Of a stretch of DNA of 43,523 nt, positions 21,575 to 24,379 are shown piece after piece (positions within the stretch are counted from its first letter, which is position 1; every line of letters begins with the position of its first letter). A program made the position numbers and the translations under genes. The stretch comes from Planotetraspora silvatica (GTDB lineage: Bacteria > Actinomycetota > Actinomycetes > Streptosporangiales > Streptosporangiaceae). A model generated the notes under the pieces. The model saw only the letters and a program-made list of their open reading frames with translations, was not told the DNA's origin and searched no databases. The DNA lies in contig NZ_BOOQ01000029.1 in NCBI RefSeq assembly GCF_016863315.1, forward strand, positions 1 through 43,523, written 5' to 3'.

Positions 21575-22414
21575 TCAGCCCACGCTCTCCTCGCGTCGTT
21601 CCCTGCGCCGCTGCTTTTTGAACATCAGAACGCGCAACGGAATCGCCGACACCATGGCGATCTGCATGACGGCGCCCACGGTGATCAGCTGGTCGCCTCC
21701 GGCCAGGCGGGCCGCCCAGATGATGAGGCACGCCACGTTGATCATCATCCAGGCGAGGACGACGGCGGCGAGGTTGCCCTTCGGCTTGGGGTACTCGATC
21801 CGGCTGACCATCAGCCACGCGACCGCGATGATCCCGGCGATCGTCACATATCCCGGCTGGAAGAGCAGCACGATCGACACCACGGTCATCGCGCCCATCG
21901 GGATCGGCAGACCCATGAAGTCGCCGCTCTTGGTCTTCACGCAGGCGAAGCGGGCCAGCCGTACGACACCGGCGAGCAGGACCGAGGCGGCGGCGAACAA
22001 CACGAGCCAGAGAGGCACCCTGCCGGAGAACCCGCCCCAGATCACCACCATGAAGGCGGGAGCGAAGCCGAAGCTGATCACATCGGCGAGGTTGTCCAGT
22101 TCGGCGCCCATCGCCGACGCGCGGAACCTCCTGGCCACGAGGCCGTCGAACAGGTCGCACGTCGCACCGACGAGCAGCAGGACCACCGCGGTGCCGAAGA
22201 ACCGGGGGTCGGGCTCGAACTTGACGCCGGACTGCAGATCGGTGATCGCCGACCACGCGAGCAGGCAGACGGCGAGGAAGCCGCTGAGGGCGTTTCCGAG
22301 CGAAAGCGAGTCTGCGGCCGACAGACGGAAGGCCTTGCCGACCGGGCCTTGGGGCTCGTCGGCCAGCCCTTCGACCGGCCAGCTCGCGTCCGCACCGAGA
22401 TCAGATGTGGTCAA
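21575..22414 (-). CDS. pssA: CDP-diacylglycerol-serine O-phosphatidyltransferase
   Basis: 279 residues, integral membrane CDP-alcohol phosphatidyltransferase that makes phosphatidylserine. The family motif D-G-x2-A-R-x8-G-x3-D-x3-D is perfect, from DGLVARR to ELDNLAD, about residues 89-110. Around six to eight hydrophobic segments surround it, and the C terminus is basic (KKQRRRERREE). The only possible start is a TTG at 22414, which overlaps the end of psd by 14 bases and is preceded by GGGGGTG, so the two genes are translationally coupled. psd then decarboxylates the product, giving phosphatidylethanolamine. Confidence 0.96.
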   Translation of the reverse strand: MTTSDLGADASWPVEGLADEPQGPVGKAFRLSAADSLSLGNALSGFLAVCLLAWSAITDLQSGVKFEPDPRFFGTAVVLLLVGATCDLFDGLVARRFRASAMGAELDNLADVISFGFAPAFMVVIWGGFSGRVPLWLVLFAAASVLLAGVVRLARFACVKTKSGDFMGLPIPMGAMTVVSIVLLFQPGYVTIAGIIAVAWLMVSRIEYPKPKGNLAAVVLAWMMINVACLIIWAARLAGGDQLITVGAVMQIAMVSAIPLRVLMFKKQRRRERREESVG

Positions 22415-23072
22415 GGCGCGTCACCCCCGCCACGGTCTTGTCGCCCACGGTGACCGCGGGAGCGACGCCCTCGGGCAGGTAGACGTCGACCCGGGAGCCC
22501 AGCCGGATCAGTCCGACCCGCTCGCCCTGGGTCACCTTGGCTCCCGCCTCCAGGTACGGCACGATCCGGCGGGCCACGGCGCCGGCGATCTGCACCATCT
22601 CGATGTCTCCGAGGTCGGAGTCGAAATGCCAGACCACGCGCTCGTTCTTGTCGCTGTCCTTGTTGAACGCGGGGACGAACCCGCCGGCCACGTGCTCGAC
22701 CGACGTGATCGTGCCCTCCACCGGCGCCCGGTTGACGTGCACGTTCAGGGGGCTCATGAAGATCGCCACCCGTGTACGGCCGTCGGCCCACGGATCGATG
22801 CTCTGGACGACTCCGTCGGCCGGCGAGATCACCCTGCCCCGTCCCGGCACCCGCTCGGGATCGCGGAAGAACCAGAGCATTCCACCCGTCAGGGCCGCCA
22901 AAGGTGCGGCGGCCAGTGCCCACTTGGGGGACCTGCGGATGAGAAGGGTGGTGACAGCCGCCGCCGTGGCGGTCGGCGCCAGCCATGGCGACACCCCACG
23001 CGCGAGCCGGATCCGACCGGGACCTCCCGCGGCCTGGACGAGGTCGCGGGAAAATTCAGAATCGTTGGACAC
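22401..23072 (-). CDS. psd: Phosphatidylserine decarboxylase, archaeal/actinobacterial short type
   Basis: 223 residues. It converts phosphatidylserine to phosphatidylethanolamine using a pyruvoyl group made by self-cleavage. The cleavage motif LGSR is present (LIRLGSRVDVYLPEG), with Gly-Ser the scissile pair. N-terminal hydrophobic segments (about 29-70) anchor it to the membrane, followed by WFFRDPER and ISPADGVV, FMSPLNVHVNR. The GTG start has AAAGG 7 bases upstream. It is first in the psd-pssA operon. The leader contains a 14-bp perfect palindrome of TetR-operator type. Confidence 0.96.
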   Translation of the reverse strand: MSNDSEFSRDLVQAAGGPGRIRLARGVSPWLAPTATAAAVTTLLIRRSPKWALAAAPLAALTGGMLWFFRDPERVPGRGRVISPADGVVQSIDPWADGRTRVAIFMSPLNVHVNRAPVEGTITSVEHVAGGFVPAFNKDSDKNERVVWHFDSDLGDIEMVQIAGAVARRIVPYLEAGAKVTQGERVGLIRLGSRVDVYLPEGVAPAVTVGDKTVAGVTRLDHI

Positions 23073-23193: not shown

Positions 23194-23229
23194 CTACCCC
23201 TGTGAGGCTTCCTACCCTTGTGAGGCTTC
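23194..23229. repeat. 18-bp tandem duplication over the terC stop
   Basis: Two copies of CTACCC(C/T)TGTGAGGCTTC head to tail (one mismatch). Read on the minus strand the second copy encodes the last TerC residues EASQG plus TAG, and the first repeats the same codons and stop after the true stop. Confidence 0.85.
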
Positions 23230-24216
23230 TTGACCCTGCGGGGCATCCTGACCCTGCGCCGAAGCGGCCACCGTGTCCCGCCTGACCTTGATCAGGCTGG
23301 CGACGGTCGTGATCGCCATCGTGACGCCGATGACGGACAGGGAGAGCCAGATAGGGATCTGAGGCGCCCAGGAGACGCCGGTCTCGTGCAGTGCCTCCAA
23401 AACGAGCTTAACCCCGATGAAACCCAGGATGAACGCAAGCCCGTAGCTGATGTAGACCAGGCGCTGCAGCAGACCACCCAGCAGGAAGTAGAGCTGACGC
23501 AGTCCCATCAGGGCGAACACGTTGGCGGTGAAGACGATGAAGGCGTCCTTGGTTAGCCCGAAGATCGCCGGAATCGAGTCGAGCGCGAAGAGCAGATCGG
23601 TGGTGCCGATCGCGATCATGACGATCAACATCGGAGTGACCATCCGCCGGCCGTTCACGCGGACGATCGCGCGCGAGCCGACGTAGTCGGGCGTGGTCGG
23701 GAACACCCGCCGCGCCCAGCGCAGGAGGAGGTTCTCGTTGAACTCCTCTTCCTGCTTGTTGTGGTCGCGGACCAGCGTGTAGGCCGTGTAGACGAGGAAG
23801 ACCCCGAAGACGTAGAAGAGCCAGCTGAACTGGTTGAGGACGGCCGCGCCGACCGCGATGAAGATGCCGCGCATGATCAGCGCGAGCACGATGCCCACCA
23901 GCAGCACCTTGTGCTGGTAGATCCTCGGCACGCCGAAACGCCCCATGATGATGTAGAAGACGAACAGGTTGTCCACGCTGAGGCTGTACTCGGTCAGGTA
24001 CCCGGCGAAGAACTCGCCTCCCGCCTGGGTCCCACGGAAGATCAATAAGATCGCGCCGAAGAGGACGGCCAGCGAGACGTAGAAGCCGACCCAGAACCCC
24101 GCCTGGCGGAGCGAGAACTCCCGGGGTTCACCGCGGTCGACGATCCACAGGTCGATCGCGAGGACGACGAGCAGGCCGACGATGACGGCGACCCATGCCC
24201 AAAGAGGAACACTCAA
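23212..24216 (-). CDS. TerC-family membrane protein, manganese riboswitch-controlled
   Basis: 334 residues, about nine transmembrane helices. TerC proteins export metal ions, notably Mn2+, during or after secretion. Conserved acidic sites in helices are seen in SLSVDNLFVFYII and LFALDSIPAIFG, and GVKLVLEALHE lies in a later helix. The C terminus is a Gln/Ala/Gly-rich tail. The start is a TTG at 24216 (LSVPLWAWVAV) with GGAAGG 8 bases upstream; an in-frame extension to 24342 would run through the riboswitch and is rejected. The leader carries a yybP-ykoY aptamer and a DtxR-like palindrome over the promoter, so manganese homeostasis is the best functional call. Confidence 0.94.
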   Translation of the reverse strand: MSVPLWAWVAVIVGLLVVLAIDLWIVDRGEPREFSLRQAGFWVGFYVSLAVLFGAILLIFRGTQAGGEFFAGYLTEYSLSVDNLFVFYIIMGRFGVPRIYQHKVLLVGIVLALIMRGIFIAVGAAVLNQFSWLFYVFGVFLVYTAYTLVRDHNKQEEEFNENLLLRWARRVFPTTPDYVGSRAIVRVNGRRMVTPMLIVMIAIGTTDLLFALDSIPAIFGLTKDAFIVFTANVFALMGLRQLYFLLGGLLQRLVYISYGLAFILGFIGVKLVLEALHETGVSWAPQIPIWLSLSVIGVTMAITTVASLIKVRRDTVAASAQGQDAPQGQEASQG

Positions 24217-24227
24217 GATGAAGACCT

Positions 24228-24254
24228 TCCGGCGCGCGCGAAGACACTGCCGGA
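24228..24254 (-). promoter_or_regulatory. terC expression platform: ribosome-site sequestering hairpin
   Basis: TCCGGC (24249-24254) pairs with GCCGGA (24228-24233) and masks the GGA of the terC ribosome site GGAAGG (24225-24230). The TCC of the first arm is also part of the aptamer P1 3' strand, so the two helices exclude each other. Confidence 0.7.
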
Positions 24255-24343
24255 GGTCTCTCCCGCCCACCGAGGTGGACCGACAGTCCCGGGCGCGGAC
24301 GCCGTGATGACGGGGCTGTCGCGAAGGGATACTCCCCCCCAAC
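24252..24343 (-). ncRNA. yybP-ykoY manganese riboswitch
   Basis: Minus-strand leader of terC. Diagnostic elements in order are: GGGGGAGTA opening, CGACAG helix strand, CCCCGTCATCA, CTGTCG closing strand, CCACC / GGTGG helix, and GGGAGAGACC. The P1 5' strand GGGGG (about 24336-24340) can pair with 3' CCTCC (24252-24256). Known members bind Mn2+ at a two-helix dock and turn on Mn exporters such as TerC-, MntP- and YybP-type proteins. Confidence 0.88.
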
Positions 24344-24349
24344 GCGTTC

Positions 24350-24379
24350 AGTATATGGATCAGGCTTAGGTTGACCTAA
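24350..24379 (-). promoter_or_regulatory. terC promoter with DtxR/MntR-like palindrome
   Basis: A -10 TATACT (24350-24355) sits 7 bases before the first riboswitch G. The 14-bp palindrome TTAGGT-TG-ACCTAA (24366-24379) covers the -35 position. The half-site TTAGGT is that of DtxR-family metalloregulator boxes. Confidence 0.6.

Follow-up and report, generated by a model that had tools for sequence, protein, structure and literature searches.

In Escherichia coli the leaders of alx and mntP are both described as Mn-responsive yybP-ykoY riboswitches (PMC9603457), and altered metal specificity among variants of this class has been suggested and, in a passage of the same paper, called likely (PMC7266159). 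Among actinobacteria, terC of C. glutamicum (cg2157) is reported with an RF00080 leader and a 5' UTR from RNA-seq (PMC3890552). For IdeR, a 14-bp sequence, TTAGGNNNNCCTAA, has been proposed as the consensus bound by one dimer (PMC8464063), and a 2023 review names the role of IdeR at half-sites, together with its targets in free-living actinomycetes, as open questions (PMC10317159). Here we describe a terC leader in which a candidate aptamer of the alx type follows a promoter carrying a sequence of this second kind.

The window, that is the whole 43,523-nucleotide stretch analysed, is the entire contig C29; the actinobacterial genome to which it belongs measures 8.66 Mb. The nearest named TerC among the matches listed is that of Planotetraspora mira, with 96% identity. 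Two frames 3' of terC (window 21575-23072, minus strand) look by eye like a phosphatidylserine decarboxylase and a CDP-alcohol phosphotransferase. The gene and the elements of its leader are listed below.

23212..24216, minus strand: terC, TTG start at 24216, 334 aa, matching TIGR03718 R_switched_Alx (1.8e-113) and Pfam TerC
24366..24379, minus strand: palindrome TTAGGTCAACCTAA, fully matching the 14-bp half-site published for one IdeR dimer (consensus from PMC8464063)
24374..24379, minus strand: -35 hexamer TTAGGT, forming the first palindrome arm; 60/75 leaders have an exact TTAGG
24350..24355, minus strand: -10 hexamer TATACT, in 75/78 core-bearing leaders, the window counted
24251..24345, minus strand: yybP-ykoY-type aptamer, 96.6 bits with covariance model R1, of which this sequence is also a part
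24336..24340, minus strand: P1 5' strand GGGGG
24330..24337, minus strand: L1 5' strand GGGGAGTA, without variation across the 51 aligned rows
24326..24329, minus strand: P1.2 5' strand TCCC, partner GGGA at 24264-24261
24302..24312, minus strand: L3 CGTCATCACGG, of the type of E. coli alx CGTCATTACGA
24255..24260, minus strand: L1 3' strand GAGACC
24252..24256, minus strand: CCTCC, P1 3' strand and anti-Shine-Dalgarno strand (switching element)
24228..24254, minus strand: masking hairpin TCCGGC (24254-24249) / GCCGGA (24233-24228)
24225..24230, minus strand: ribosome site GGAAGG; GGAGG in 92/109 leaders counted

A preliminary description of this DNA had placed a palindrome over the -35 region, and it lies there on the minus strand at 24366-24379, with TTAGGT 18 bp from TATACT. 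That description also set the -10 seven bases before the aptamer; the hexamer is present, and the gap to the G run at 24340 is 9 bases. The leader runs in the order GGGGAGTA-TCCC...CGTCATCACGG...GGGA-GAGACC. In the best 80 of 334 TerC loci, GGGGAGTA followed by the L3 motif occurred in 77, and a stricter pattern that also required GAGACC was passed by 72. A scan of 200 genomes of the order with the motif pattern gave matches in 28, and the reversed control gave none. In the Rhizohabitans leader (L128 1347-1466) the P3 hairpin was enlarged and held an extra GTGAGACC.

For comparison between leaders we built a covariance model, R1, from 51 actinobacterial leaders only, hand-picked for diversity among the loci then available. 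In this alignment changes on both sides were found in 18 of 29 pairs, and paired cells made up 95.1%; the observed values were not reached by any of 500 shuffles, and sliding the partners reduced pairing to 44-55%. Covariation supports the helices P1, P3 and P4. The L1 strands between P1.1 and P1.2, GGGGAGUA and GAGACC, were invariant or nearly so in the 51 leaders and identical in alx, and L3, CGTCATCACG, was invariant apart from T or C at one position and is of the alx type. One of the L3 adenosines would correspond to the Mn-contacting A48 described for the X. oryzae structure (PMC6754395), although the L3 of the terC leader departs from the crystallised CAUACU type. No helix was found between P1.2 and P3 of the terC leader where a P2 arm would stand, and the four-way junction seen in the crystallised RNAs is therefore absent. 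A P2 arm is common in the family but does not define it; by eye alx likewise has no P2, with only CATT between P1.2 and P3. Based on this comparison, the assignment of the terC leader to the yybP-ykoY Mn2+ riboswitch aptamers, E. coli alx type, is well supported, and the leader would be expected to bind Mn2+.

The Rfam search proposed in the preliminary description gave no such match. The window was without a match at the Rfam gathering threshold, and RF00080 found nothing at E<=10 over a stretch of 301 bases and gave no match across the whole genome of the window or in 17 tested loci (14 around TerC, 3 found via the leader pattern), of which 15 have the leader by pattern or R1, the exceptions being L138 and L050. 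Among 14 control genomes, the same search gave matches in five, one of them E. coli. Taken formally, this outcome speaks against a yybP-ykoY aptamer, but the same model also misses alx: the alx leader of E. coli K-12 (L150 872-999) was absent from the RF00080 (Rfam 15) results at E<=0.01, and the mntP leader (L149 462-572) scored 41.6 bits against a cut-off of 45. RF00080 is thus an unfair judge of the alx-like subtype, and a gathering cut-off is a rule for detection, no trait of the RNA. By eye, its printed consensus shows a GUCAACAUACUU-type L3 and lacks the GAGACC strand.

R1, in contrast to RF00080, recovered alx at 40.8 bits (E 1.7e-8) in a 72-kb search, in which mntP was a weak match (22.7 bits, E 9.4e-4). 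With the covarying helices, this bears out the aptamer family named in the preliminary description. Across the class R1 matched 233 of 394 genomes and 83 of 138 genera, counts that include the genomes used in R1, and RF00080 matched 7 of 296 genomes in a smaller, different draw, none above its cut-off. TerC lay directly downstream in 30 of the 30 best-scoring class-wide R1 loci that were fetched, the window's own counted. Weaker matches had a second L3 type, CGACAyrCTGG, and in the six loci examined stood ahead of cation exporters, GDT1 in three and Na_Ca_ex in three. Many Mn-type riboswitches of the Actinomycetes thus appear to be missed by the current Rfam model.

Some individual leaders deserve a separate mention. 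The genome of the window gave three R1 matches: the terC leader described here, the leader of a second terC (L195 597-693, contig C19) and that of an Na_Ca_ex exchanger gene (L201 1501-1597, contig C64). In the last, L3 is of the other type and P1 continues differently. Locus L160 (minus strand, about 1400-1487) has a leader with the second L3 type ahead of GDT1. After this leader come a GC hairpin and a T-rich stretch, by eye resembling an intrinsic terminator, which suggests transcriptional control at this GDT1 leader. The L160 leader adjoins an RNase P RNA gene.

We then considered how the aptamer is connected to translation. TCC is common to CCTCC and TCCGGC, and the GCCGGA arm includes the GGA of GGAAGG, so the coordinates agree with the earlier proposal that the P1 3' strand shares its TCC with a hairpin masking the ribosome site. 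The six bases that follow GAGACC were perfectly complemented further downstream in 100 of 115 distinct leaders; shuffles gave a mean of 2.8 and a maximum of 9. A nine-base complement search was dropped as too loose, its shuffled control being high too, and the exact hexamer test was used instead. The masking pair was TCCGGC/GCCGGA in 86 of the 100, TCCGGT/ACCGGA in 13 and another pair in one; the change from TCCGGC to TCCGGT is matched by the partner (C-G to T-A) and is therefore compensatory.

Two-state folding was examined in 69 leaders that could be parsed out of 76 given. The five-base P1 was canonical in 69/69, and since the parse pattern requires GAGACCTCCGG, the P1 3' strand is fixed by the selection of leaders. 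When P1 was forced closed, the ribosome site became more open in 69/69, its openness rising from a median of 0.0 to 0.61 (window: 0.20 to 0.57). In the energy model closure of P1 cost a median of 12.2 kcal/mol (range 4.4-18.9; window 12.0), and with a cost of about 12 kcal/mol kinetics or tertiary contacts must pay. For E. coli alx the cost was 15.3 kcal/mol and the model gave no opening of the ribosome site, so alx informs on the size of the energy gap only. From these pairings a translational switch, in which the P1 3' strand competes for the ribosome site as the preliminary description had it, is well supported; that Mn2+ turns translation on would follow from the pairing logic.

According to this scheme, transcription would start just 5' of the aptamer, from the promoter TTAGGT-18-TATACT. 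Mn2+ would dock L1 and L3 and keep P1 shut (GGGGG with CCTCC), which would hold CCTCC out of reach of the downstream GGAAGG and allow terC to be translated. When Mn2+ is absent, GACCTCCGGC would pair with GCCGGAAGGTC and the ribosome site would be hidden.

The promoter was then compared with the published operator. With 18 bp separating it from TATACT, TTAGGT is itself the -35 hexamer. A search of the window that allowed up to 2 mismatches found TTAGGTCAACCTAA alone, with 0.07 expected by chance. The full 19-bp IdeR box, TTAGGTTAGSCTAACCTAA, was not found at terC, which differs from it by 6 mismatches counted by eye. Elsewhere in the genome seven places lay within 3 mismatches of the 19-bp box, terC excluded, and the reversed control gave 0; the neighbouring proteins scanned formed a mixed set, with FecCD and an ABC protein on the one hand and NUDIX, ATP-grasp and other proteins on the other.

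The strongest competitor to a regulator at this promoter, to which we give even odds, is that the palindrome serves as a -35 element only, the second arm being ancestral spacer, so that the riboswitch layer acts alone. Divergence within ten genera agrees with it. Expressed as the share of differing sequence pairs per column, averaged over these genera, the first arm is near-invariant (0.039), and the second arm (0.366) drifts at the pace of upstream DNA (0.382), ahead of the remaining spacer (0.235). Column information in the second arm was no higher than in the spacer (hand-calculated means 0.50 and 0.57). The second arm was lost in one Planotetraspora (L067), and the half-site was not seen at that spacing in Herbidospora, Sinosporangium or Rhizohabitans. 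Conservation as proof of an operator accordingly fails, because the second arm drifts within genera as upstream DNA does.

The position of the second arm argues the other way. Of 75 leaders, 15 carried an exact SCTAA at the spacing of the palindrome, and the arm was exact 2 times over the 89 other offsets taken together. With up to 1 mismatch allowed it occurred in 34 of 75, and two other offsets reached 18 and 30 of 75, the latter overlapping the -10. After other TTAGG in the same loci an exact second arm was found in 0/42: among 47 such TTAGG there were 5 exact arms, which are the Planotetraspora palindromes read from the opposite strand, leaving 0/42. The fit to the published IdeR half-site is also exact. 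A palindrome by pure chance was considered and set aside as unlikely in sequence terms, given the 0.07 expected in the window, yet the half-site is no commoner in the genome than its control. Overall a conserved operator is unsupported, and a lineage-specific operator is possible.

The regulators and half-sites of the genome were then examined. PF02742 matched one protein, which has both DtxR-family domains, and one protein was likewise matched in each of the 5 genus genomes searched (5/5, own included). PF01325 alone gave a second, partial match on contig C13 (27.1 against a cut-off of 26 bits) and four more below the cut-off. The protein with both domains fitted the iron-repressor model NF053665 at 422 bits (5e-127) and the best MntR model at 117 bits against a cut-off of 350. 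By eye it has Met and Cys at the apparent iron-sensor positions, as these are given in PMC10317159. The palindrome probably suits IdeR more than a manganese regulator, since one protein was found to combine the two DtxR-family domains and it is of the IdeR iron-repressor type.

In the 8.66 Mb the half-site TTAGGNNNNSCTAA is present four times, at terC and at the following three places.

At the 5' end of an FTR1 iron-permease frame
L223 1501-1514 (contig C67): 229 bp upstream of a ferritin-like gene
L222 1501-1514 (contig C55): 45 bp ahead of a CopD-domain gene

That the other three half-sites adjoin FTR1, ferritin-like and CopD genes weighs against a -35 element only, and the ferritin-like and CopD genes are possible IdeR targets by this predicted site. 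The count itself weighs for it, since the reversed control pattern occurred at six places against four, so that the half-site is not enriched. Under the same neighbour rule four frames qualified at three of the six control places (two without a Pfam family, one peptidase and one APH phosphotransferase), and the remaining three had no qualifying frame. Taking both sides together, control of terC by IdeR in this species is a prediction that we hold with somewhat less than even confidence.

A second alternative keeps the fold and changes the ligand, to another divalent ion or to pH. Reporters of alx respond to alkaline pH besides Mn2+ (PMC9603457), and the altered specificity suggested among yybP variants (PMC7266159) would allow for it. 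However, the L3 is of the alx type, alx being Mn2+-responsive, the gene downstream is of the TerC/Alx kind, and the weaker matches with the other L3 stand ahead of GDT1 and Na_Ca_ex exporters. We regard a different ligand as improbable.

Still less probable is that the palindrome is an MntR box, which would give a two-layer manganese switch as at E. coli mntP, where MntR and a yybP-ykoY riboswitch are joined (PMC11647493). The metal sites of IdeR are described as not exclusively Fe2+-selective (PMC10317159), a point on the side of this reading. The host's protein with both DtxR-family domains, however, fits the iron-repressor model far above any MntR model, its apparent iron-sensor residues are Met and Cys, and sister half-sites lie near iron genes. 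MntR as the user of the palindrome was rejected: among the DtxR-family proteins covered by PF02742/PF01325 and NCBIfam, no MntR-type protein was found. The phrase "complete two-layer manganese switch" in the preliminary description cannot therefore be kept, as the palindrome suits an IdeR-type iron repressor and its second arm is unconserved within genera. A leader that is simply a conserved GC-rich hairpin under the control of a protein or an RNA thermometer would accord with the lack of a fitting Rfam family match and with the unremarkable folding energy of the window leader alone (z -1.07), but it is hardly credible beside the invariant unpaired L1 and L3 shared with alx, the covariation and the recovery of both E. 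coli Mn riboswitches by R1.

The best explanation, for which we estimate a probability of roughly 0.8, is an alx-subtype Mn2+ riboswitch acting on translation, with possible additional control of the promoter by Fe2+-IdeR. For the locus as a whole, the manganese riboswitch is well supported and a second layer is plausible, but with iron as its metal. In this species the -35 would double as an arm of an IdeR half-site, and with iron plentiful Fe2+-IdeR may bind there and repress terC. Taken one step further, terC would be an AND gate for the Mn/Fe ratio, with one Fe2+-IdeR dimer on a half-site over the -35 stopping transcription under iron sufficiency and translation permitted only at high Mn2+, a gate that would have arisen in some lineages of the order through use of the -35 hexamer as an operator arm; we consider this extension tentative and rather doubtful. 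If it is true, TerC would be made when Mn exceeds Fe, that is, when mismetallation is likeliest. The terC promoter also offers a compact case for the question of IdeR half-sites.

Compared with described systems, the terC leader is close in its elements to E. coli alx, with which it shares L1 GGGGAGTA / GAGACC, a P1.2, the L3 CGTCAT(T/C)ACG, a P2 not visible by eye and a TerC/Alx protein downstream; the order in alx is GGGGAGTA-ACTT...TCGTCATTACGATG...AAGT-GAGACC. It differs from alx in its short GC-rich P4 and the direct competition of CCTCC with GGAGG, the alx leader being longer and having several more hairpins. C. glutamicum cg2157 is likewise an actinobacterial terC, but its leader was found by the Rfam model of its day, and the passage that describes it mentions no operator (PMC3890552). 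With that leader in print the aptamer is already known, and the breadth missed by Rfam is the newer part.

The candidate operator is like the half-sites of S. erythraea at the nuo promoter, where the same 14 bp are bound by one IdeR dimer (PMC8464063). In S. erythraea the half-site precedes respiratory complex I; the predicted one described here sits on the terC -35, ahead of a riboswitch-type leader. No report of IdeR on a yybP-ykoY leader or terC was seen by title or start of abstract among the matches listed, a search with most of the subscription literature outside its scope, and the putative combination of IdeR at a half-site doubling as the -35 with a Mn riboswitch was likewise not found among the matches listed. 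E. coli mntP is similar in joining a riboswitch with transcriptional metal control, there by MntR and Fur (PMC11647493). It is unlike the present locus in that its gene encodes the Mn exporter MntP, its regulators are MntR and Fur rather than IdeR, and its L3 is of the GTCAACATACT type. With MntR, Fur and a riboswitch at one gene, mntP nevertheless provides a precedent for mixed iron and manganese control of a gene with a Mn riboswitch.
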